Origin: Lysobacterales bacterium
GTDB taxonomy: Bacteria; Pseudomonadota; Gammaproteobacteria; Xanthomonadales; Xanthomonadaceae
Length of the DNA: 64,000 nt
Reading direction: 5' to 3'
NCBI GenBank assembly: GCA_019510125.1
Contig: JAEKKX010000009.1
Coordinates: forward strand, 124,001-188,000
Of the stretch, positions 2,859 through 19,746 are shown in pieces (position 1 is the first letter of the stretch; each line of letters starts with the position of its first letter). Under the pieces are notes generated by a model. The model worked only from the letters and a program-made list of their open reading frames with translations, was not told the origin of the DNA and did not search any database. Both the position numbers and the translations under genes were made by a program.

Positions 2859-3281
2859 TCAGGCGGCGGGCACCACCAGCTTGAGCCCCTTGAAGTAGTC
2901 GCGGAAGAATCGGTCGTCGCGGGTGATCAGTCCATTGCACTGTAGTAGCGCATGGGCGCCGATCAGGAAGTCGGCGGTGGCGCGCGCGGGAGCGGCGGGC
3001 GCGGCGCCGCCGGCGACGCTGCGCTGGCGGTGCCGGCGCTGCATCTCGCCGGCGCGCAGGGCGGACTTGGCCTCGACCGGGCTGAAACGGATGCTCATCT
3101 CCTCCAGCACCGACAGGGCTTCGGCGCCGTCGCGCAGGGCGGCGCAGACTTCGGCCAGCGCGACCTCGCAGACCACCACCGGCCCGGCGCTGAGGCACTG
3201 GCGCAGGCAGGCTTCCGCGGCGTCGGCATGCGGCCCGTCGGTGAGCAGGTCGATCAGCACCGGGGCGTCGACGGCGATCAT
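2859..3281 (-). CDS. vapC: VapC-like PIN-domain ribonuclease toxin
   Basis: 140 residues starting [16 protein letters not shown]. The first strand carries the N-terminal Asp of the PIN active site ([10 protein letters not shown]), and the C-terminal part has the second acidic cluster ([13 protein letters not shown], then LITRDDRFF). PIN toxins are Mg-dependent endoribonucleases, usually cutting tRNA or rRNA when free of antitoxin. The ATG overlaps the upstream antitoxin stop by 4 nt (ATGA), so translation is coupled. A longer frame upstream exists but is only the antitoxin gene read out of phase. Its exact RNA target cannot be predicted. Confidence 0.82.
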
Positions 3282-3523
3282 TCGGCGGGCGCCTCGTCGG
3301 CGGCGTCGCCGCGCACCGCGCGGACCGCGGCGTCGGCGCTGTCGAAGCCGTCCAGCCGGAAGCGGCCGCGGGCGCGGGACACGGCGTCGTCCACGGACTT
3401 GCGCAGCACGATCCGGCTGCCTTCCAGCTCGACCTTGAGCACGCTGCCCTTGGTCAGGCCCAGCGCGTCGCGGACCGCCTTGGGCAGGGTGATCTGGCCG
3501 CGTTCGGCGACGGTGGCTTCCAT
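3278..3523 (-). CDS. vapB: VapB-like antitoxin with AbrB/SpoVT N-domain
   Basis: 81 residues. The N-terminal [20 protein letters not shown] is a typical AbrB/MazE swapped-hairpin DNA-binding motif. The acidic C-terminal tail (about residues 55-81) is the likely toxin-binding segment. It is the first gene of the pair and overlaps vapC by 4 nt, the normal antitoxin-toxin order. The ATG at 3523 was chosen because the AbrB motif begins there; an upstream in-frame Met would add about 16 residues. Autoregulation through the repeats at 3540-3577 is inferred. Confidence 0.82.
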
Positions 3524-3539
3524 CGGCGGCTCCCGGCTG

Positions 3540-3577
3540 AAGTATGCCGACATCATACATACTTTTCCTTGCATACT
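3540..3577 (-). promoter_or_regulatory. Candidate vapBC autoregulatory operator
   Basis: Immediately upstream of vapB is a perfect inverted repeat, AAGTATG (3540-3546) and CATACTT (3558-3564), with an 11-bp spacer. A further half-site, GCATACT, lies at 3571-3577. It is more AT-rich than its surroundings and placed where AbrB-type antitoxins normally bind. Function is inferred. Confidence 0.5.
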
Positions 3578-3673
3578 CCACGGGCGGTCGTGCAACACGC
3601 CGTCCGCCCTTGGCGTCCTGCGGTTGTCGCCGCGAGGGGGGATAATCGCCCCATCCCCCACCCGGAGCCCGCC

Positions 3674-6838: not shown

Positions 6839-8539
6839 ATGAATTCCGAGCGTCAGTGGCTTGCGAGCTACCCCGCGGGCGTACCCGCCGAGGTCGACGT
6901 CGAAGCGTACGCGTCGATCGTCGCGGTCCTGCAGTCTTCCCTGGAGAAGTACCGGGACCGCGTCGCCTTCAGCAACTCGCCCAGCGGCAAGCCTGTCCTC
7001 GGGCGCTCCATCACCTACGCCGAGGTCGATCTCTACAGCAAACAGTTCGCGGCCTACCTGCTCGGCGAGCTGAAGCTCAAGAAGGGCGACCGGGTCGCGG
7101 TGATGATGCCCAACTGCCTGCAGTACCCGATCGCCATCTTCGGCATCCTGCGCGCGGGCCTCACGGTGGTGAACGTCAATCCGATGTACACGCCGCGCGA
7201 GCTCAAGCACCAGCTCGTCGACTCCGGCGCCAGCGCGATCCTCGTGCTCGACAACTTCGGCCGCACCGTGCAGGAAGTCGTCGCCGACACCCCGGTCAAG
7301 CAGGTCATCACCACCGGCGTCGGCGACATGCTCGGCTTCCCGCGCGGCGCGATCGTCAACTTCGTCGTGAACAACGTGAAGAAGGCGGTGCCGGATTACG
7401 AGATTCCCGGGGCGATCCGCTTCAGGAACGCCCTCACCCTCGGCCAGATGCACGAGCTGCCCGAAGTGCAGATCGCGGCCGGCGACATCGCGTTCCTGCA
7501 GTACACCGGCGGCACGACCGGCGTCGCCAAGGGCGCGATGCTGACCCACCGCAACCTCGTCGCGAACATGCAGCAGGCCGCGGCCTGGGTGGCCGGCATG
7601 ACCCGCGAAGGCAGCGAGCTGATCATCACCGCGCTGCCGCTGTACCACATCTTCGCGCTGACCGCGAACTGCCTGGTGTTCATGAAGCTGGGCGCGCGCA
7701 ACCACCTCATCACCAACCCGCGCGACATGCCGGGCTTCGTGCGCGAACTGTCCGGGATCCCGTTCACCGCCATCACCGGCGTCAACACGCTGTTCAACGG
7801 CCTGCTGAACACCCCCGGATTCGACAAGATCGACTTCTCCCACCTCCGCCTGACCCTGGGCGGCGGCATGGCGGTCCAGCGCGCCGTCGCCGAACGCTGG
7901 AAGCAGATCACCGGCTGCACCCTGGTCGAGGCCTATGGCCTGACCGAGACCTCGCCCGCGGCCTGCATGAACCCGCTCGACCTGCCCGAGTACAACGGCG
8001 CGATCGGCCTGCCGATCCCCTCGACCGACGCCTGCGTCATGGACGAGGAAGGCCGCCGCCTCGGCGTCGGCGAAGTCGGCGAGCTGTGCATCAAGGGGCC
8101 GCAGGTGATGAAGGGCTACTGGCAGCGCCCGGAGGAAACCGCCCAGGTGCTCGGCGCCGACGGCTGGCTGCACACCGGCGACATGGCGAAGATGGATGAA
8201 AACGGTTTCTTCTACATCGTCGATCGCAAGAAGGACATGATCCTGGTGTCCGGCTTCAACGTGTATCCGAACGAGATCGAGGACGTCATCGCGCTGATGC
8301 CCGGCGTGCTCGAAGTGGCCGCCGTCGGCGTGCCGGACGACAAATCGGGCGAGGCGGTCAAGGTCGTGATCGTCAAGAAGGATCCCGCGCTGACCGCCGA
8401 GGAGGTGAAGGCGCATGCGCGCGAGAACCTGACCGGCTACAAACAGCCCAAATACATCGAATTCCGGACCGAACTGCCGAAAACGAACGTCGGCAAGATC
8501 CTGAGGCGCGAACTTCGGGAGCAGACCAACAGCGGCTGA
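6839..8539 (+). CDS. rpfB: Long-chain fatty-acid CoA ligase, RpfB/FadD type
   Basis: Activates fatty acids to acyl-CoA through an acyl-adenylate. The 566-residue protein has the ANL-family P-loop YTGGTTGVAKGAMLTHRN (about residue 222), the A5 region AYGLTETSPA, the A7 GWLHTGDMAKMDENGF and the A10 lysine near KTNVGKILRRELRE. In Xanthomonas RpfB is a FadD-type ligase involved in DSF processing and turnover. A strong ribosome site (GGGAGGG) precedes the ATG at 6839. It follows acnA and precedes the ketosynthase-rpfF pair, separated from the latter by a clear terminator. Confidence 0.93.
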   Translation: MNSERQWLASYPAGVPAEVDVEAYASIVAVLQSSLEKYRDRVAFSNSPSGKPVLGRSITYAEVDLYSKQFAAYLLGELKLKKGDRVAVMMPNCLQYPIAIFGILRAGLTVVNVNPMYTPRELKHQLVDSGASAILVLDNFGRTVQEVVADTPVKQVITTGVGDMLGFPRGAIVNFVVNNVKKAVPDYEIPGAIRFRNALTLGQMHELPEVQIAAGDIAFLQYTGGTTGVAKGAMLTHRNLVANMQQAAAWVAGMTREGSELIITALPLYHIFALTANCLVFMKLGARNHLITNPRDMPGFVRELSGIPFTAITGVNTLFNGLLNTPGFDKIDFSHLRLTLGGGMAVQRAVAERWKQITGCTLVEAYGLTETSPAACMNPLDLPEYNGAIGLPIPSTDACVMDEEGRRLGVGEVGELCIKGPQVMKGYWQRPEETAQVLGADGWLHTGDMAKMDENGFFYIVDRKKDMILVSGFNVYPNEIEDVIALMPGVLEVAAVGVPDDKSGEAVKVVIVKKDPALTAEEVKAHARENLTGYKQPKYIEFRTELPKTNVGKILRRELREQTNSG

Positions 8540-8762: not shown

Positions 8763-9006
8763 CCCGGGATTCCCGACGGGCACTGCCGGATGCAGTCGCG
8801 CCCGGTCTCCGCAACGACGCCACTGACGTGCGCGAGACGACTTCCGCCAGAGCAGACACCGGCGGCAACCGCTCCATCCGTTTTCCGTATCCGCAACCGT
8901 TACGGAGGTCGCGTCCGCAGTCGACGCGCGGCACCGGCAGACGCCGATGCCATCCCGGAATCGACCGCAGATCGACCTTCAACCCGCACCAGGTAGTCGC
9001 CACGCA

Positions 9007-10239
9007 ATGGCCAAGAGTCTAGTCGCTATCACGGGGCTCGGTGTCCTTTCGCCCATCGGCCTCAACATCGACGAAGTCCAGGCATCGATCGCCAGCACGC
9101 GCTCGGGCATCGTCCCGCTGGAAGCGCCGCCACTCGGGAAAATCTACCCGGCCGGCGTCGTGCAGGCGCGCTTCGAAGACCGCTTCACCGCGCTCGAACT
9201 GCCGTTTCTCGATCGCTGCCAGCAGATGGCGATCCTCGCCGCCGACCAGGCCATGCGGCAGTCCGGACACGCCGACCTCGCGGAATACGGGCTTCGCGCG
9301 GCGGTCCACTACGGCAACGTCAACGGCGGCGTCGCCACCGCCCAGGCCTGGTACGGGCAGATGCTGCTCGAAGGCCGGGGCGCTTCCCGCCCCTTCACCG
9401 CGATGGCGATCATGGGCAACGCCGGCGCCGCGCAGATCTCGATCCGGCGCAAGGTCCACGGCCCGGTCATCACCCACTCCAGCGCCTGCAGTTCCTCCGG
9501 CGTCGCGATCGCGGAAGCGGCGCGGGCCATCTCCGACGGCCATCTCGACATCGCCATCGCCGGCGGCGCCGAAGCGCCCCTGACCGCCAGCCTGATCGGC
9601 GTCTTCGACGGCACCCGATCGCTCGCGAAGATCGACCAGGACGACCCGTCCCGGTCGTGCAAACCCTTTTCCTCGCAGCGCAACGGCCTGGTCGTCGGCG
9701 AAGGCGCCGCGTTCCTGATCCTCGAATCCGAGCACAACGCGCGCGCGCGCGGCGCCGAAGTGCTCGCCTACGTCTCCGGCAGCGCGATCGGCAGCGACGC
9801 CTGGCACATCGGCACCCCGTACGCCGACGGCCAGCGGGCCACGCTGCGCAAGGCGCTGGACGACGCCGGCCTCGCGCCCGGCGAGATCGGCTACGTCAAC
9901 GCGCATGCCACCGCCACCAACGGCGGCGACGTGGTCGAGTCCGACGCGCTGCGCTCGGTGTTCGGCAGCGGATCCGAAGCGCCCCCGGTGAGCTCCACCA
10001 AGGGCGTCCACGGCCACCTGCTCGGCGCCACCAGTGCGCTCGAGGCGGTGATCACGATCCTGGCGCTCCGCTCCGCCACGCTTCCCGCCACCGCGCACCT
10101 CGACCAGATCGATCCCCGATGCGCGTTGAACCACATACCGGCCGAGGCCGCACGCAACCGACGGATCGCGCACGCGCTGTCGTTCTCGTGCGGATTCGGC
10201 GGGACCAACGCAGCCCTCGTTTTCTCGTCCGCCCACTGA
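9007..10239 (+). CDS. FabF/KAS II-like 3-oxoacyl-ACP synthase in the rpf locus
   Basis: A 410-residue condensing enzyme predicted to extend acyl chains by decarboxylative condensation with malonyl-ACP. The catalytic Cys161 lies in HSSACSSSGVAIAEAAR, the histidines are His300 (NAHATATNGGD) and His337 (KGVHGHLLGA), and the buried lysine is Lys332, so the Cys-His-His triad is intact. The C-terminal GFGGTNAAL loop is present. It lies 59 bp upstream of rpfF on the same strand, so the two are probably co-transcribed. The Xanthomonas rpf locus has no ketosynthase here. A role supplying 3-hydroxyacyl-ACP for DSF-type signals is inferred; a separate secondary-metabolite role is possible. The start is uncertain because the ribosome site is weak. 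Confidence 0.85.
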   Translation: MAKSLVAITGLGVLSPIGLNIDEVQASIASTRSGIVPLEAPPLGKIYPAGVVQARFEDRFTALELPFLDRCQQMAILAADQAMRQSGHADLAEYGLRAAVHYGNVNGGVATAQAWYGQMLLEGRGASRPFTAMAIMGNAGAAQISIRRKVHGPVITHSSACSSSGVAIAEAARAISDGHLDIAIAGGAEAPLTASLIGVFDGTRSLAKIDQDDPSRSCKPFSSQRNGLVVGEGAAFLILESEHNARARGAEVLAYVSGSAIGSDAWHIGTPYADGQRATLRKALDDAGLAPGEIGYVNAHATATNGGDVVESDALRSVFGSGSEAPPVSSTKGVHGHLLGATSALEAVITILALRSATLPATAHLDQIDPRCALNHIPAEAARNRRIAHALSFSCGFGGTNAALVFSSAH

Positions 10240-10298
10240 TCCCCTTCCCATCCCCGCCGCCCCCTTTCCACACCTCGTCTACCCTCGGAGACCGCACC

Positions 10299-11207
10299 AT
10301 GAACACCGCCTCGCAGCCGATGCCCTTCGCTTCCGCCAACACCCACAGCCGCATCAGCGCGGAAGTCCGGCGCCAGAAGAAGGACAGCCTCTGGCTGACC
10401 CTCCATCGCGACCAGCAGCGAGGCGTCCACAACTTCACCGCGAGCCTGCTGCGCGAGCTGCGCAGCGTGATCGACGGCCTGAGCCGTTCCCAGGGGCAGT
10501 GGCCCGTCGATGCGACGACCACCGACATCGGCTACCTCGTGCTGAAATCGTCGGATCCGGAATATTTCAGCGTCGGCGGCGACCTCAAGCACTTCCGCGC
10601 CTGTATCGCCGAGGGCGACGAAAAGGCGCTGCTGTCCTACTCGAACCAGTGCCTCGACCTGCTCTGGAACTGGTCGAACCTGCTGAAGGACCGGATGACC
10701 TCGATCGCGCTGGTCCAGGGCCGCGCGCTGGGCGGCGGCTTCGAGATGGCGCTGAGCGCGGACTACATCGTCGCCGAGGAGCACAGTTCCTTCGGCTTCC
10801 CCGAGATCATGTTCGGGCTGTTCCCCTGCACCGGCGCGATGGGCCTGCTGACGCGCCGCGTCGGCGCGGTGCGCGCCGAGCGCATGATGACCGAGAACAG
10901 GATCTACACCGCGCAGGAGCTGCTCCAGGCCGGGATCATCGACGAGATCTGCCCGACCGGCGAAGGCGAATGCGCCGTCGAAGCCTACATCGCCCGCCAT
11001 TCCGCCCGGCAGAAGGCGTTCCTCAAGGTCCAGCAGAGCCGCATGCGCACCGCGCCGTTCGATCTCGACGAAGCCCGCCTCGTCGTCGAGGACTGGGTGG
11101 AACTCGCCATCGGTCTGTCGCCCGCGGAACTGCGCACGCTGGACATGCTGATCCTGATGCAGGAAGGCAACCGCAATCCGAAGCCGGCGGAACGCAAGGT
11201 GGCGTGA
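10299..11207 (+). CDS. rpfF: RpfF-like DSF synthase (crotonase-fold dehydratase/thioesterase)
   Basis: 302 residues of the enoyl-CoA hydratase superfamily. In Xanthomonas RpfF dehydrates 3-hydroxyacyl-ACP and hydrolyses the product to cis-2-unsaturated fatty acids (DSF). Two glutamates 20 residues apart are retained: Glu149 (GGGFEMAL) and Glu169 (FGFPEIMFGLFP), matching the catalytic pair of RpfF. The N-terminal extension (about 1-30) and several loops differ from Xanthomonas RpfF as I recall it, so a different chain-length preference is possible. It follows the ketosynthase and converges on rpfC, the arrangement expected for rpfF. Context supports RpfF over a beta-oxidation hydratase. Confidence 0.85.
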   Translation: MNTASQPMPFASANTHSRISAEVRRQKKDSLWLTLHRDQQRGVHNFTASLLRELRSVIDGLSRSQGQWPVDATTTDIGYLVLKSSDPEYFSVGGDLKHFRACIAEGDEKALLSYSNQCLDLLWNWSNLLKDRMTSIALVQGRALGGGFEMALSADYIVAEEHSSFGFPEIMFGLFPCTGAMGLLTRRVGAVRAERMMTENRIYTAQELLQAGIIDEICPTGEGECAVEAYIARHSARQKAFLKVQQSRMRTAPFDLDEARLVVEDWVELAIGLSPAELRTLDMLILMQEGNRNPKPAERKVA

Positions 11208-11249
11208 CCGACGCGCCTCGCGCACGGGCGGGCTCCGCCGTTATGGCCT

Positions 11250-13379
11250 TCAGCCATCCAGTGCGATGCGGCTTTCGAGCAGCGCGTTGAGCGCCTTGAC
11301 GCTTTCGACCGCGAGCTCCTGGGTTTCGCGCAGCCACTGGCTGCGTGTCGCGCGCAGTTCCGGCGCGGGGAGGCTCATCAACCTGCTGGCGGCGGAAGCC
11401 AGCCGCACGGCGCCGACGTTCAGGCTCACGCCCTTGAGCGAATGTGCGCCATGGCGGATGGCGTCGACGTCCTCGAGCGCGGCGCTTGCGGCCAGTTGTT
11501 CGACCAGCTTGTCGATGTCGGAAATGGCGTCGCCGATCATCGCCTCGAGGAACTGGCGCGAGGAGTTGATCTCGAGCAGGTTCTCGATCGCTTCCATGCT
11601 GATGTATTCGACCGGGACGACCTTGAGCTGGCTGCGCACGTCCTGGACGGGGAACGGCTCCCTCTGCCTCGGGGCGGGAGATTCGCTGTCGCCGATCGCC
11701 AGCGGGTAGTCCGACGGGTCGGCCACGAGCGCCGTACGCAGTTTGTGGAAGGTGATCGGCTTGTGGATCACGCCGCCCGCCCCGGTCGCCAGCAGTTTGC
11801 GCTGGGTGGTCTCCGAAGTGTCGGCGGTGATGAAGAAGGTCGGCGACGGCTTGATCTTGCCGAAGCGGTAGATCTGGAACACCTGGGCGCCATCCATGTC
11901 GCTCATGTTGAAGTCGAGGAAGATGGCGTCGTAATCGTTCTCGGCGAGGCATTCCAGGGCCTCGACGCCCGAATGCACGGCCTCGACGTCGTGTCCGTCC
12001 TTGAGCAGCATCTCCTGCAGCAGTCGCAGGTTGACCGGATGGTCGTCGGCGATGAGGATGCGACGCTTCGACACCGGCCCGGCGGCGACCGCGCGCGGCG
12101 CCTCGACCGGACGCGGCAGGCTGTGCGGCGACTTCTTCAGGCGCAGCTCGAACCAGAACACGGTGCCCTCGCCGACCCGACTGTCGACCTGGAGGGTGCC
12201 GCCCATCCGGCGCACGTGCTCGTACGCGATCGACGTGCCCAGGCCGGTGCCGCCGTAGCGCCGGTTGGAGCCGCGCTCGACCTGGTAGAACGGTTCGAAG
12301 ATCTTCTCCAGGTGCTCCTGCGGAATCCCGATCCCGCTGTCGGCGACGCGGAAGCTCACCGAATACTCGCCGGGCCTGTCGTCGATCAGCGCCACCGTGA
12401 CGCTGACCTTGCCCTTGTCCGTGAACTTCACCGCATTGCCGGCGAGGTTCATCAGGACGCTCGTCAGTTCGTGCTCGTAGCCGAGGATCGGCGCGTCGAT
12501 GCGCGCGTCGTGCTCGATCTCCAGCCGGATGTTCTTGCGCAGCGCGATCGGCTCCAGCGCGATCCGCACGTGGCGGGTCACCGCCTCGAGGCCGAACGTC
12601 GTCAGCTCGCTCTGGACCGTGCCCGACTGGAGCTTGGACAGGTCGAGCAGTTGCTTGATCTCGCCGTCCAGCGCAGACGACAGGTCGAGGATCGCGCCGA
12701 CGCGCTCGTGGATCGACGGGTCGCGGTGCTCGGAGGCGATCAACTGGGCCGACGAGACGATCCCGGTCAGGGGCGTGCGCAGTTCGTGGCTCACGTTCGC
12801 GAGCAGTTGCGACTTCGCCTTGCTCTCGCTTTCGGCGAGGTTGCGCGCGGTGTGCAGGTTGCGGATCAGGGTGGACGCGTACAGCGGGACGATCAGCAGC
12901 ACCAGTCCATGCGAGACCGCGGACATCGCCTCGTTGTGCCAGATCGGCGAATACAGGGCGACCAGGCAGAACCCCGCCATCGCCACGGCCTGGCACACGC
13001 GCATCGGCAGGATGCCGATGCGGAAACCGAAGCCGAGGATCGTGAACAGGTAGAAGCTGGTGAACAGGATCGACGCCTTGCCCATCACGAACAGCCACGC
13101 CGAGAGCATGATCGGATCGAAGATCGCGGTCAGCAGCACCTGGTCCCGGGCGGGCAGCAGTCGCTGGTGGCGCGCCATGTACCACGCCGTGAGGTTGTAC
13201 AGGGTGTATGCGATGGAGAGGCCGACGACCTCGGGCATGCCGATCGCCGGGGACGACGTACCCCAGACGTTGATCGCGGTCAAGATCAACGCCAGCACCG
13301 GGAAGCCCAGCTTGAGCCGCAGCGCCGCCTGCGCGCGAACGCTGTCGATCAGATGCGAATTCTGGGGAATGCTTTCCAT
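11250..13379 (-). CDS. rpfC: RpfC-like hybrid histidine kinase
   Basis: 709 residues that sense DSF at the inner membrane. The layout is: N-terminal region with about five hydrophobic helices (residues 25-175); HisKA with phospho-His198 (VSHELRTPLTG); HATPase with N-box LMNLAGNAVKF, DSGIGIP and GGTGLG; a receiver domain with Asp488 (IFLDFNMSDMDG); and a C-terminal Hpt domain with His645 (HSLKGVSLN). This is the domain order and length of Xanthomonas RpfC. In that system RpfC passes phosphate to RpfG and also binds RpfF to restrain DSF synthesis. It converges on rpfF with a gap of about 40 bp and diverges from the acyl carrier protein gene. Confidence 0.94.
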   Translation of the reverse strand: MESIPQNSHLIDSVRAQAALRLKLGFPVLALILTAINVWGTSSPAIGMPEVVGLSIAYTLYNLTAWYMARHQRLLPARDQVLLTAIFDPIMLSAWLFVMGKASILFTSFYLFTILGFGFRIGILPMRVCQAVAMAGFCLVALYSPIWHNEAMSAVSHGLVLLIVPLYASTLIRNLHTARNLAESESKAKSQLLANVSHELRTPLTGIVSSAQLIASEHRDPSIHERVGAILDLSSALDGEIKQLLDLSKLQSGTVQSELTTFGLEAVTRHVRIALEPIALRKNIRLEIEHDARIDAPILGYEHELTSVLMNLAGNAVKFTDKGKVSVTVALIDDRPGEYSVSFRVADSGIGIPQEHLEKIFEPFYQVERGSNRRYGGTGLGTSIAYEHVRRMGGTLQVDSRVGEGTVFWFELRLKKSPHSLPRPVEAPRAVAAGPVSKRRILIADDHPVNLRLLQEMLLKDGHDVEAVHSGVEALECLAENDYDAIFLDFNMSDMDGAQVFQIYRFGKIKPSPTFFITADTSETTQRKLLATGAGGVIHKPITFHKLRTALVADPSDYPLAIGDSESPAPRQREPFPVQDVRSQLKVVPVEYISMEAIENLLEINSSRQFLEAMIGDAISDIDKLVEQLAASAALEDVDAIRHGAHSLKGVSLNVGAVRLASAASRLMSLPAPELRATRSQWLRETQELAVESVKALNALLESRIALDG

Positions 13380-13522
13380 CGCGTCGCCTCTGAGTGGCGT
13401 ACTAGCTGGGCCAGTGTCTCACGCATTGTTTCGTGGGAGAATCGAGGTGGGCGGCCTCGTCGCTCGTTTCATCGACCCCGATCATGTCCGGACGGACGGC
13501 AGGCGCCGCCAGGAGACGCACA

Positions 13523-13765
13523 GTGGAAAAGAAAGACGTCATGGAGCGATTGGTCGCCCTGCTCCACGAGAAGTTCGGCACCGACCCGAAGACCGTCACG
13601 CTGCAGACGCGACAGGACGAGCTGGGCATCGACTCGATCCTCCTGGTCGACCTCATGCTGGACATCGAGGATCGAATGGACTTTTCCTTCCAGAGCATGA
13701 CGCTTCCGCCGAACCCGTCCATCGACGACATCTGCGAACTCGTCCTGCAGAACCGCACCCCTTGA
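13523..13765 (+). CDS. Stand-alone acyl carrier protein in the rpf locus
   Basis: 80 residues. The phosphopantetheine attachment serine is Ser38 in DELGIDSILLVDLMLDIED, followed by the acidic helix II typical of ACPs. A GTG start at 13523 is preceded by AGGAG at 7-nt spacing; an internal ATG at 13541 would remove six residues. The gene lies on the plus strand between rpfC and rpfG, both on the minus strand, the place occupied by rpfH in Xanthomonas. With the ketosynthase next to rpfF it suggests a dedicated carrier for the signal synthase or its feeding pathway. That partnership is inferred from proximity. Confidence 0.85.
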   Translation: MEKKDVMERLVALLHEKFGTDPKTVTLQTRQDELGIDSILLVDLMLDIEDRMDFSFQSMTLPPNPSIDDICELVLQNRTP

Positions 13766-13817: not shown

Positions 13818-14891
13818 CTAGGCCATCCCCGGCCGCGGGGAACTCGTCGAATAGCGTTCGCAGATGTCCTCCAGCCGCGAGCGGTTGTTCACCAGCGCCT
13901 GCACGCACTGCGGATCGAACAGCTTGCCGCTCTGCTCCTGCAGGAAGTCGAGGGCGTTGTCGAAGCTCCACGGCGCCTTGTAAGGGCGCGGCGAGATCAG
14001 CGCGTCGAAGACGTCGGCGACCGCGACGATGCGGGCTTCGACCGGGATCTGCTGGCCGCTCAGTCCGTCCGGGTAACCGCTGCCGTCGAAACGCTCGTGG
14101 TGGCGCAGCGCGATCAGCGCGCCGACCTGGATGAAGCGGTTCTGGCTGCCGCTGAGCAGTTCGTGGCCGATCTGCGGATGCCGGCGCATGATCCCGAGCT
14201 GCTGCTCGTCCAAAGGACCGGGCTTGAGCAGGACCTCGTCGGGGATCGCGATCTTGCCGATGTCGTGCAGGGGCGCGGCCAGTTCGATCAGCCGGACCTC
14301 CTCCTCGGACATGCCCAGGCCCTCGGCGATCAGGCCGGCGATGTGGGCCATGCGTTCGAGATAGGCGCTGGTGCCGATGTCGCGGTACTCGATCGCGCGC
14401 GCCAGGCGGGACAGGGTTTCGCGTTCGCGCTCCTCGACCTCGTGCATGCTCGACAGCAGGCGCTGCTCGAGCGACAGCGCGCGCTGCTTGATCGATTCGG
14501 ACTGCTGGCGCAGTTGCAGCAGGTTGCGACAGCGGGCGCGCAGTTCGCGCGGGCGCACCGGCTTGACCAGGAAGTCGATGACGCCGGCGTCGAGCGCCGC
14601 CTGCCGGATCGGCTCGTCGCCGACCACCGTGACCAGCACGATCGGGACGTCGCGGTTGCTCAGCGAACGACGGAAGCGGCGGGCGAATTCGAGGCCGTCG
14701 ATCACCGGCATGCGGTAGTCGAGCAGCAGCAGGTCCGGACGGTTGTTCTCGGACCAGCGCAGCGCCTCTTCCGAGTCGCCGAAGTCGAAGACCTCAAGCT
14801 CCGGACTGATGTCCTCCAGGATGTGCCGCAGCATCGTGCGCGCGGACGTCTGGTCGTCGACGATGACGATTTTCACGGAGTTGCCCCACAT
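13818..14891 (-). CDS. rpfG: RpfG-like response regulator with HD-GYP domain
   Basis: 357 residues. The receiver domain has phospho-acceptor Asp58 (LLLLDYRMP) and Lys110 (FLVKPVRP). After a helical linker, the HD-GYP phosphodiesterase domain shows LHDIGK (His209-Asp210), HHERFDGSGYPDGL (about 264-277) and VADVFDAL. RpfG receives phosphate from RpfC and degrades cyclic di-GMP, linking DSF to virulence-factor and biofilm control in Xanthomonas. All signature residues are present. It is separated from rpfC by the oppositely oriented ACP gene, so an rpfG-rpfC operon as in Xanthomonas is unlikely here. Confidence 0.96.
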   Translation of the reverse strand: MWGNSVKIVIVDDQTSARTMLRHILEDISPELEVFDFGDSEEALRWSENNRPDLLLLDYRMPVIDGLEFARRFRRSLSNRDVPIVLVTVVGDEPIRQAALDAGVIDFLVKPVRPRELRARCRNLLQLRQQSESIKQRALSLEQRLLSSMHEVEERERETLSRLARAIEYRDIGTSAYLERMAHIAGLIAEGLGMSEEEVRLIELAAPLHDIGKIAIPDEVLLKPGPLDEQQLGIMRRHPQIGHELLSGSQNRFIQVGALIALRHHERFDGSGYPDGLSGQQIPVEARIVAVADVFDALISPRPYKAPWSFDNALDFLQEQSGKLFDPQCVQALVNNRSRLEDICERYSTSSPRPGMA

Positions 14892-15046: not shown

Positions 15047-16555
15047 TCAGCTTTCCGGGCGCATGTACGGGAACAGCAGCACGTCACGGATCGACGCCGA
15101 ACCCGTGAGCAACATCACCAGACGGTCGATGCCGACGCCGAGGCCGCCGGTCGGCGGCAGCCCGACCTCGAGGGCGCGGATGTAGTCGGCGTCGTAGTGC
15201 ATGGCTTCGTCGTCGCCGCCTTCCTTCGCCTCGACCTGCGCCCGGAAGCGCGCCGCCTGGTCTTCCGGATCGTTCAACTCGCTGAAACCATTGGCCATTT
15301 CCTTGCCGCCGATGAACAGCTCGAAGCGGTCGGTGATCCCCGGCTCGGTGTCGGACTCGCGCGCCAGCGGCGAGACCTCGACCGGGTAATGGGTGATGAA
15401 CGTCGGCTGGACGAGATCGGCCTCGACCGTCTTCTCGAAGATCTCCAGCAGCAGCTTGCCCCAGCCGTAGCCCGGCTTGACGTGGATCTTCAGCCGCGCG
15501 CAGTGCGCGGCGAGCGCGTCGCGGTCGCGGCAGTCGGCGGCGGAGATGCCGGGGTTGCGCTCGCGCACCGCTTCTTCCAGTTTCCAGCGCCGGAACGGCT
15601 TGCCGAGGTCGATCGCGTTGCCTTCCCAGACCACCTCGTCCACGCCGACCGCCTCGCGCGCGACGTCCCGGATCAGGCCCTCGGTCAGGTCCATCACTTC
15701 GTTGTAAGTGGCGTAGGCCTCGTACAGTTCGAGCATCGTGAACTCGGGGTTGTGGCGGGTGCTGACGCCTTCGTTGCGAAAGTTGCGGTTGATCTCGTAC
15801 ACGCGCTCGAAGCCGCCGACGACCAGGCGCTTGAGGTACAGCTCCGGCGCCACGCGCAGGTACAGGTCGAGGTCCAGCGCGTTGTGGTGGGTGGTGAACG
15901 GACGCGCGGTCGCGCCGCCGGCGATGTAATGCATCATCGGCGTCTCCACTTCCTGGAAACGCCGCGCGTCCAGCCAGCGCCGGATCGCGGACACGATCTT
16001 CGAGCGCTTGCGGAACACTTCGCGCGACTCGGGGGTGACGATCAGATCGACGTAGCGCTGGCGGTAGCGCTGTTCGACGTCGGCCAGGCCGTGCCACTTG
16101 TCCGGCAGCGGACGCAGCGACTTGGTCAGCAGGCGCAGCGCGCCCGCCTTCACCGACAACTCGCCGGTCTTCGTGCGCATCAGCGTGCCTTCGGCGCCGA
16201 CGATGTCGCCGACGTCCCAGTGCTTGAACGCGTCGTAAGCCTCGCCCAGCGCGCCCGCCTGCAGGAACAACTGGATGCCGCCGGTCATGTCCTGGATCTG
16301 TGCGAACGCGGCCTTGCCCATCACCCGCTTGGCCATCAGGCGGCCGGCGACGGCGACGCTGCGACCCTCGGCGTCCAGCGCCTCGCCGGTCCACCGCGCG
16401 GCGTCTTCGTAGGCGTCCTGCAGGTCCTGCGCGTAGTCGCGGCGGACGAAGTCGTTCGGGAACGCGGTGCCCTGCCCGCGCAGCGCGGCGAGTTTTCCGC
16501 GACGCTCGGCGATCAGGGCGTTGTCGTCGTGCGGCGGGGTCTGGGCGTCGGTCAT
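15047..16555 (-). CDS. lysS: Lysyl-tRNA synthetase, class II
   Basis: Charges tRNA-Lys. 502 residues with an N-terminal OB-fold anticodon-binding domain (about 60-170; [18 protein letters not shown]) and a class II core including [18 protein letters not shown] and the C-terminal motif 3 [18 protein letters not shown]. The ATG at 16555 (MTDAQTPP) gives the usual length; in-frame codons upstream have no similarity. lysS next to rpfG is a conserved feature of the xanthomonad rpf locus. Confidence 0.97.
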
Positions 16556-16733
16556 GGGCGGGCTGTCGGGAGCGGAAGGGGGCGCCACCGGCACGGTCGC
16601 TGCGGATGCGATCGGCGACGGTAAAGGGCGACGGCCGCATCGACGCGGCCACCGCCCTGGCTGAGCGGAAGTATATCGGCAGGCCGCGGTCGATGTTCCC
16701 GCGCGGCCGGGCCGCGCCGCGGCCGGCTCGCGG

Positions 16734-18617: not shown

Positions 18618-19746
18618 TCAGGCCGCGTCGATGCGCTTGGCGCCGGCGTCGAGGCCCGATTTGAGGCTGGCCTCGACGAATTCGTCGAGATCGCCGTCGA
18701 GCACCTTCTGGGTGTCGCTGCGTTCGACGCCGGTACGCAGGTCCTTGATCCGGGACTGGTCGAGCACGTAGTTGCGGATCTGGCTGCCCCAGCCGATGTC
18801 GGACTTGGTGGCCTCCAGCGCATCGCGCTCGGCGTTGCGCTTCTGGATCTCCATCTCGTACAGCTTCGCCTTCAGCATCTTCATCGCGGTGTCGCGGTTC
18901 TGGTGCTGGCTGCGGCCGTTCTGGCAGGCCACCACGATGCCCGAGGGCACGTGGGTGATGCGCACTGCCGACTCGGTCTTGTTCACGTGCTGGCCGCCCG
19001 CGCCGGAGGAGCGGTAGACGTCGGTCTTGAGGTCGGCCGGGTTGATCTCGATGTCGATGTCGTCGTCGACTTCCGGCGAGACGAACACCGAGGTGAACGA
19101 GGTGTGGCGACGGTTGTCGGAGTCGAACGGCGACTTGCGCACCAGCCGGTGCACGCCGATCTCTGTCTTCAGCCAACCATACGCATAGTCGCCCTCGACC
19201 TTGACGGTCGCCGACTTGATCCCGGCCACGTCGCCGGCGCTGGCTTCCATCAGCTCGGTCTTCCAGCCGCGCGATTCGGCCCAGCGCAGGTACATGCGCA
19301 GCAGCATTTCCGCCCAGTCCTGGGCCTCGGTGCCGCCGGCGCCGGCCTGGATGTCGACGTAGGCGTTGGCCGAGTCCATCTTGCCGGAGAACATGCGCTG
19401 GAATTCGAGCTGGTCGACGCCGCGGGCATAGCGCTCCACGTCGGCCTGGATCGCCAGCGCGGTGTCGTCGTCGCTCTCCATTTCGACCAGTTCGAGGAGT
19501 TCCTCGGCGCCGGCGAGACCGTCCTTCAGGTCGCGGATGCCGTTGACGGTCTTGTCCAGCAGCGCGCGCTCGCGGCCGAGGGCCTGCGCGCGTTCGGCGT
19601 CGTTCCAGACGTCGGGGTTTTCCAGTTCGCGGTTGACTTCTTCGAGACGCTCGACCTTGGCGTCGTAGTCAAAGATACCCCCTCAGCGCATCGAGCCGGC
19701 CCCGGAGGTCGGCGATGCGCTGGCGGATCGGATTCAGTTCGATCAT
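18618..19746 (-). CDS. prfB: Peptide chain release factor 2, with programmed +1 frameshift
   Basis: RF2 recognises UGA and UAA and triggers peptide release. The frame opens at ATG 19746, reads 25 codons ([20 protein letters not shown]...) and meets an in-frame TGA at 19669-19671. A +1 slip on CTT-TGA-C continues the protein to 18618, giving about 375 residues. The anticodon-like SPF tripeptide ([11 protein letters not shown]) and catalytic GGQ ([12 protein letters not shown]) are present. The slip makes RF2 synthesis self-limiting: plentiful RF2 terminates at the internal stop. prfB lies in the conserved rpf-lysS-prfB-recJ neighbourhood. Confidence 0.96.
19669..19683 (-). promoter_or_regulatory. 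prfB programmed frameshift signal
   Basis: On the minus strand an internal Shine-Dalgarno-like AGGGGG (19678-19683) lies 3 nt upstream of CTT, followed by TGA and C. Spacing and order are the textbook RF2 recoding site. Confidence 0.95.

Follow-up and report, generated by a model that had tools for sequence, protein, structure and literature searches.

A ketosynthase and an acyl carrier protein linked to distinct RpfF and RpfC types: a variant of the DSF/Rpf signaling locus

Diffusible signal factor (DSF) signaling is described as taking its precursors from housekeeping fatty-acid synthesis, which raises the question of why an rpf quorum-sensing locus should carry a ketosynthase and an acyl carrier protein (ACP) of its own. 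We addressed this question for a stretch of 64,000 nucleotides from a Lysobacterales bacterium (the window; G000:C7:124001-188000, in a 4.08-Mb genome), in which a ketosynthase gene precedes rpfF and an ACP gene lies between rpfC and rpfG. We confirmed the arrangement and found it to be conserved; as far as our literature search reaches, it is also undescribed, and it constitutes a new variant of DSF/Rpf signaling. Judging from the sequences, the ACP, the ketosynthase and distinct types of RpfF and RpfC are rather likely to form a four-gene quorum-sensing module that works with the RpfG of the host, draws on a dedicated precursor and releases a product other than DSF. These four genes, referred to below as the cassette, are the following.

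9007 to 10239, plus strand: cassette ketosynthase with a FabF-like fold and Cys161, His300, Lys332 and His337 (Pfam PF00109/PF02801)
10299 to 11207, plus strand: cassette-type RpfF with Glu149 and Glu169 and with Cys102, Cys177 and Cys218, which are characteristic of the type
11250 to 13379, minus strand: cassette-type RpfC, a hybrid histidine kinase (HisKA-HATPase_c-REC-Hpt) with an altered N-terminal sensor
13523 to 13765, plus strand: cassette ACP with a GTG start and Ser38 in a DS motif (Pfam PF00550, above cutoff)

A previous sequence-only reading of this DNA had placed an enzyme of the 3-ketoacyl-ACP synthase II (KAS II) type 59 bp before rpfF, and its coordinates, strands, gap and residues Cys161, His300 and His337 all proved correct. 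The ACP with Ser38 that the same reading had located between rpfC and rpfG was likewise confirmed in its position, and it matches PF00550. A further in-frame ATG is present before the ketosynthase, at 8947, while its relatives start at about 9007.

The ketosynthase and RpfF each served as a query against 297 genomes of the family. The ketosynthase matched 16 genomes with at least 477 bits and at least 55% identity, after which the scores dropped to 282 bits and the next best identity was 41%. RpfF matched the same 16 genomes with at least 300 bits and at least 50% identity, followed by a drop to 192 bits, where ordinary RpfF starts, with a next best identity of 41%. In neighborhoods of up to 20 kb fetched around 15 of these genomes, to which the window was added, the ketosynthase adjoined a cassette-type RpfF in 16 cases out of 16, and RpfC and the ACP were present in 15, the sequence of the remaining genome (G151) stopping at a contig edge. 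The ketosynthase-rpfF neighborhood that the sequence-only reading had singled out is thus found throughout the carriers of the family, and the linkage persists across orders and under changed gene order.

More widely, screening 84,980 species genomes with the alignment of RpfF and the patterns FGLFPCTG and L[VI]QGRALGG returned 70 loci, of which 65 were counted (L078-L142, E ≤ 2e-61) and five weak crotonases (L143-L147) were dropped; the reliance on two short patterns, both taken from the alignment, makes 65 a lower bound. The named hosts were Lysobacterales and Betaproteobacteria, with record titles, many of them of metagenome-assembled genomes, that include Lysobacter, Luteimonas, Pseudoxanthomonas, Dokdonella, Rudaea, Herbaspirillum, Noviherbaspirillum, Herminiimonas, Thiomonas and Sulfuritalea, among others. 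A ketosynthase was present in 63 of the 65 loci, RpfC in 58, the ACP in 53, RpfG in 33 and an rpfB-like ligase in 15. The gene order varied among loci, and the set of cassette genes mostly stayed together. ACP, ketosynthase and RpfF ran in one direction in 30 of the 53 loci with an ACP, including L130, a locus that holds two ketosynthase-RpfF sets around one rpfC and a single ACP. The ACP was located beyond rpfC, as in the window, in 19 of the 53, namely 13 from Lysobacterales and six (L085, L092, L107, L115, L119 and L139) assigned by title to Oxalobacteraceae or other Burkholderiales; it followed RpfF in L109 and L134, and L100 and L133 were more rearranged. On the short or cut contigs of L083, L090, L091, L104, L129, L132, L136 and L140 no ACP was seen, and L132, whose contig starts inside rpfC, is also without a ketosynthase.

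Scanning with the ketosynthase alignment gave six of 299 genomes of the order at E ≤ 1e-140, the window included, and the three of these that lie outside the family also hold a cassette-type RpfF and ACP. The corresponding scan of the class gave two of 321 genomes at E ≤ 1e-120, the window and G689, the latter harboring an ACP-ketosynthase pair; the 9 kb fetched from G689 contain no RpfF. Open reading frames were also clustered, and for clusters common to at least five of the 65 loci, some of which are antisense frames, five hub sequences were annotated with Pfam. These were lysyl-tRNA synthetase-like, REC-cyclase, chemotaxis receptor, HDOD and DUF4440 proteins, and no additional shared cassette enzyme was found among the five. 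Carriage by plasmids was rejected as well, the 140 plasmid records that match the ketosynthase all being less than 60% identical to it.

Whether the ketosynthase and the ACP are simply the housekeeping FabF and AcpP could be answered from the host genome itself, which has its own FabF and AcpP genes adjoining each other at C1:304276-305923. The cassette ketosynthase failed the FabF model TIGR03150 with 338.5 bits (cutoff, 493.75), against 651.4 bits for the own FabF. The cassette ACP, which is too short for a tree and was judged by family scores, failed the AcpP model TIGR00517 with 21.8 bits (cutoff, 70.45), against 120.3 bits for the own AcpP. For the ketosynthase, we built a tree of 87 sequences, 62 from cassettes and 25 others, after dropping three cassette fragments and one partial own copy on C26. 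All 62 cassette ketosynthases formed one clade (support 100/100). Outside it lay the FabF of E. coli and of the host (support 100/99), the FabB of both organisms and the ACP-linked ketosynthase of other family genomes; the root of this tree has no meaning beyond the drawing, and the program cautions that the noncassette rows include long branches. The clade and the model scores of both proteins thus rule out housekeeping identity and bear out the proposal of the sequence-only reading that the pair is a dedicated one. Other family genomes contain a second kind of ACP-ketosynthase gene pair (L165, L174, L160, L162-L164, L166, L175 and L176), its ketosynthase being about 39 to 45% identical to the cassette one and no RpfF being present in the stretches fetched.

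The predicted structure of the ketosynthase (mean predicted local distance difference test score [pLDDT], 83.5) had FabF as its best matches, with 31 to 36% identity in the structure list, and the catalytic Cys, His, Lys and His are present in all 62 cassette copies. The beta-branching cassettes of polyketide synthases have a decarboxylating ketosynthase lacking the Cys, plus a 3-hydroxy-3-methylglutaryl-coenzyme A (HMG-CoA) synthase. We rejected such a cassette (crotonase, ketosynthase and ACP) as an explanation here, given that the active-site Cys is retained in 62 of 62, that the crotonase is RpfF-like and that its partner is RpfC; no HMG-CoA synthase appeared among the annotated shared gene clusters, a set in which no search was aimed at this enzyme.

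Three other positions set most of the cassette ketosynthases apart from FabF, FabB and the ACP-linked ketosynthase. Position 107 (E. coli structure numbering, as for the other ketosynthase positions discussed), a Gly in 17 of 17 FabF, FabB and ACP-linked ketosynthases, is mainly Val (54 of 62), and position 398, a Phe in the same 17, is Ala, Cys or Ser in all 62; we take both positions to face the pocket. Position 108, the Ile108 of FabF, is Ile, Gly, Val or Ala in the comparison enzymes and Arg (25 copies), Asn (20 copies) or another residue (17 copies) in the cassettes. Ile108 and Phe400 were reported to govern chain access in FabF, and an Ile108Phe substitution to lower the elongation of long chains (PMC5206705; this and the other papers are cited from partial texts).

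RpfF retains the fold and the catalytic glutamates of a DSF synthase. The best solved relative of the cassette type, searched with the 16-member alignment, was Xanthomonas RpfF 3m6m (E = 4.8e-63), and the structures closest to the RpfF model (mean pLDDT, 80.5) were Cronobacter RpfF, DfsA and Xanthomonas RpfF. Glu149 and Glu169 of the window protein correspond to Glu141 and Glu161 of Xanthomonas RpfF, and both catalytic glutamates were found in 67 of 67 cassette and 17 of 17 ordinary RpfF sequences. The RpfF of the cassette is 33 to 41% identical to ordinary RpfF. Ten positions are conserved within each of the two sets yet differ between them, in agreement with an earlier remark that this RpfF diverges outside the catalytic glutamates. 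Three of the ten are cysteines: Cys102 (65 of 67; Leu in 16 and Cys in 1 of the 17 ordinary sequences), Cys177 (65 of 67; Gly in 17 of 17) and Cys218 (66 of 67; Val in 17 of 17). The scan pattern that contains Cys177 played no part in finding the 16 family members, and all of these have this residue as well. Cys177 lies eight residues past the second glutamate, the spacing of Cys154 in DspI, which the authors of that study proposed to be part of catalysis (PMC5834635). By the same reasoning on spacing, its counterpart in enoyl-CoA hydratase would be Gly172, where related isomerases can bear a catalytic glutamate (PMC13126182).

Against the NCBIfam model NF053515, the window RpfF scored only 180.7 bits, below the cutoff of 550. 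We do not take this failure as proof of a difference, since the control scores weaken it: a Xanthomonas-like RpfF reached 598.8 bits, and the ordinary RpfF proteins of G137 and G008 (374 and 347 bits) also fall below the cutoff, which is therefore narrow. The broader model PRK08788 was passed (261 bits versus 177). Seven candidates were scored in the host genome, and none of them was a second RpfF at E ≤ 1e-20. From score gaps and fixed differences rather than from trees, we conclude that both RpfF and RpfC of the cassette are themselves distinct types.

RpfC is altered in its N-terminal sensor. Xanthomonas RpfC needs Arg15, Asp17, Ser18, Glu19 and Gln22 to sense DSF (PMC5391125). We aligned 57 cassette RpfC sequences (56 from the 58 loci, two partial ones being dropped, plus the window) with ordinary RpfC, for which eight sequences, a small set, were available. 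The ordinary proteins have Arg, Asp, Glu and Gln in eight of eight each and Ser or Thr in eight of eight. Among the 56 readable cassette rows, Arg15 is found in 5, Asp17 in 2, Ser18 in 10 and Glu19 in none, with Gln22 present in 57 of 57. Over the aligned part, cassette and ordinary RpfC are 27 to 31% identical.

Two observations concern RpfC and its output in single loci. The cassette rpfC frame of L068 (about 11173-13265; G279) is split into two overlapping pieces, through either sequencing error or decay. In three cassette loci from Betaproteobacteria, none of which yielded an RpfG, a response regulator is encoded that joins a receiver domain to a class III nucleotide cyclase domain (L089:4036-5085, L093:10351-11397 and L095:4032-5075; Pfam was run on the L093 copy, to which the other two are 68 to 75% identical in the cyclase part), possibly an alternative output for the cassette RpfC.

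The surroundings of the cassette in the window are those of an rpf locus, in the order rpfB-like ligase (+), ketosynthase (+), rpfF (+), rpfC (-), ACP (+), rpfG (-), lysyl-tRNA synthetase-like gene (-) and release-factor gene (-). The host genes are the following.

6839 to 8539, plus strand: rpfB-like long-chain acyl-CoA ligase, a host rpf-locus gene (NCBIfam PRK08751, 1045.9 bits, cutoff 1023)
13818 to 14891, minus strand: RpfG, a host rpf-locus gene (REC-HD; HHE...GSGYP stretch in the translation)
15047 to 16594, minus strand: lysyl-tRNA synthetase-like gene, an rpf-locus landmark, presumably lysS by rpf synteny (Pfam tRNA-synt_2 and tRNA_anti-codon)
18618 to 19481, minus strand: peptide chain release factor gene (prfB-like), an rpf-locus landmark (Pfam PCRF and RF-1)

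In two genomes of the same genus, G137 and G216, whose RpfG proteins are 95 and 89% identical to that of the window, as well as in five other genomes checked, it is an ordinary rpfF-rpfC pair that adjoins rpfG. On the other side of this pair lies rpfB in six of the seven (it was not seen in G207), and lysS-prfB is found past rpfG. One of the seven, G174, also carries the cassette, at another place in its genome. Among the 16 family genomes, the cassette is located between rpfB and rpfG in eight, next to rpfG at the end of a contig in G151 and, as far as fetched, outside the rpf locus in seven; in G008, cassette and ordinary system stand side by side. Ordinary rpfF is absent from five of the seven genomes with the cassette outside the rpf locus, rpfB and rpfG still being there. 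The rpf loci of G138, G090 and G254 have kept rpfB and rpfG and have neither rpfF nor rpfC, and that of G026 gave no rpfF or rpfC match. In L189 (G239), an ordinary-type rpfC without rpfF is left at the rpf locus and the cassette is elsewhere. G159 and G174 have kept both ordinary genes at the rpf locus. Overall, an ordinary RpfF (E ≤ 1e-20, at most seven candidates scored per genome) was detected in 3 of the 16 cassette genomes versus 213 of the other 281 (Fisher p = 5.7e-6, a value that overstates the case because the genomes are related). The four genes thus behave as a transferable synthase-receptor module that takes the place of the ordinary rpfF-rpfC pair and reuses RpfG.

What might such a module do? 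The substrate of ordinary RpfF is a 3-hydroxyacyl-ACP drawn from the fatty-acid cycle, which the enzyme dehydrates and whose thioester it hydrolyzes (PMC4542539; PMC5941067). In the cassette, we propose that the ketosynthase would elongate an acyl chain on the dedicated ACP, that FabG of the host would reduce the 3-oxo group and that the cassette RpfF would dehydrate the resulting 3-hydroxyacyl-ACP and hydrolyze it to the free acid. The cassette RpfC would then sense this product and, via RpfG, feed the ordinary cyclic di-GMP output. The signal is probably neither DSF nor its relative BDSF, as the module departs from the ordinary system in the pocket of the ketosynthase, in the active site of RpfF and in the sensor of RpfC alike. 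A bolder version, which we regard as possible if doubtful, is that of a separate signal class: the ketosynthase and ACP might build a polar or unusually short chain, to be completed and released by the Cys-bearing RpfF and read by the matched receptor, the whole being a transferable private language connected to the ordinary RpfG output.

Several findings weigh against the module as proposed. The gate residue Phe400 of FabF is retained in 60 of the 62 cassette ketosynthases, and the RpfC of the window, without Arg and Glu, keeps Asp17, Ser18 and Gln22; no other of the 57 rows has three of the five sensor residues. Of the 65 loci, just three (L108, L109 and L134) contain a FabG-like frame, which is why the FabG of the host is assumed. 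No ACP was found near RpfF in L123, L126, L135 and L142 despite ample flanks, no RpfC within 11 to 15 kb in L109 and L134, and no ketosynthase within 4.8 kb of RpfF in L140, a short contig. The conservation of the pattern letters among the 65 loci is biased by the scan, only the 16 family members being free of this bias. Distance correlations among the cassette genes (0.75 to 0.89) offer no argument for coevolution, since the host genes rpfG and rpfB correlate with them about as well (0.69 to 0.82).

An unlikely alternative is that the role of the ketosynthase and ACP is confined to providing more of the usual C12-C13 3-hydroxyacyl-ACP, the signal being ordinary DSF or BDSF. RpfF with both catalytic glutamates, its nearest solved relatives RpfF and DfsA, the retention of host RpfB and RpfG and the three sensor residues kept in the window RpfC would all suit such a role. 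However, Xanthomonas makes DSF-family signals through its ordinary fatty-acid synthesis cycle (PMC4542539), and a mere increase in flux would need no receptor type of its own, whereas the RpfC sensor lacks Glu19 throughout the readable rows and mostly lacks Arg15 and Asp17 as well.

It also seems improbable that elongation follows RpfF, with a cis bond set on the ACP-bound chain and the ketosynthase then extending this chain in the manner of FabA and FabB, which would place the bond deeper in the product. The frequent change at position 108 would fit, as Ile108 may partly explain the difference between FabF and FabB in extending unsaturated chains (PMC5206705), but Xanthomonas RpfF also cleaves the thioester and would free the chain before elongation (PMC4542539). 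Finally, a ketosynthase and ACP that belong to another quorum-sensing-regulated pathway and are merely nearby, as the related pairs without RpfF in the stretches fetched from G290, G006 and G689, for example, might suggest, are very hard to reconcile with a ketosynthase that accompanies the cassette RpfF in all 16 family genomes and, even where the genes are reordered, in 63 of the 65 scanned loci, with a pair that is still linked on the far side of rpfG in L100 and with the lack of any further pathway-like gene among the annotated clusters of at least five loci.

Compared with known systems, the proposed module shares with Xanthomonas DSF/Rpf (RpfB-RpfF-RpfC-RpfG) the synthase fold, the catalytic glutamates, an RpfC with REC and Hpt domains, RpfG and a locus adjoining rpfB and lysS-prfB, and it differs by the added ketosynthase and ACP, the changed RpfC sensor and the Cys eight residues past the second Glu. 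The exchange of matched RpfF/RpfC pairs at one locus resembles the rpf-1/rpf-2 variants of Stenotrophomonas maltophilia, which differ mainly in the N termini of RpfF and RpfC and for which the partial text contained no mention of a ketosynthase or ACP (PMC4517397). Like DspI of Pseudomonas aeruginosa, the cassette RpfF is a crotonase with two Glu and a Cys (Glu169/Cys177, corresponding to Glu146/Cys154 of DspI; PMC5834635), but the two are distant in sequence (E = 2.5e-20 for 5wyb versus 4.8e-63 for RpfF). The ketosynthase is like FabF (KAS II) in its fold and Cys-His-Lys-His active site and unlike it in its separate clade, missed model cutoffs and mostly altered positions 107, 108 and 398.

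In the open-access literature, judged by titles and abstract openings among those listed, we found no description of a ketosynthase/ACP-rpf arrangement. The terms ketoacyl, acyl carrier and rpfB were absent from a paper on Lysobacter brunescens, and a primer fragment from that paper, used in an attempt to link its strain to an ordinary allele, had no match in 186 loci; we make no claim on that strain. Our data suggest an undescribed chemical dialect in some soil and water bacteria that is able to replace the usual one. A type with its own chain-builder, carrier and matched receptor, standing in repeatedly for the ordinary pair with RpfG kept, would show how a whole language can be swapped in quorum sensing. 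Signal specificity also becomes testable, since within one genus this locus is occupied by the ordinary pair in some genomes and by the cassette in others.

Two further features were noted away from the rpf locus. At 2862-3595 (minus strand) of the window, a MazE/AbrB-type antitoxin domain (PF04014) adjoins a PIN-domain protein (PF01850), forming a VapBC-like pair between two aconitase genes. Outside the window, at G000:C7:29311-97052 and on C32 and C26, open frames of 1,448 to 5,993 amino acids contain 19 ketosynthase domains. These are large modular polyketide synthase genes, most of which lie on the contig of the window and end about 27 kb before it.

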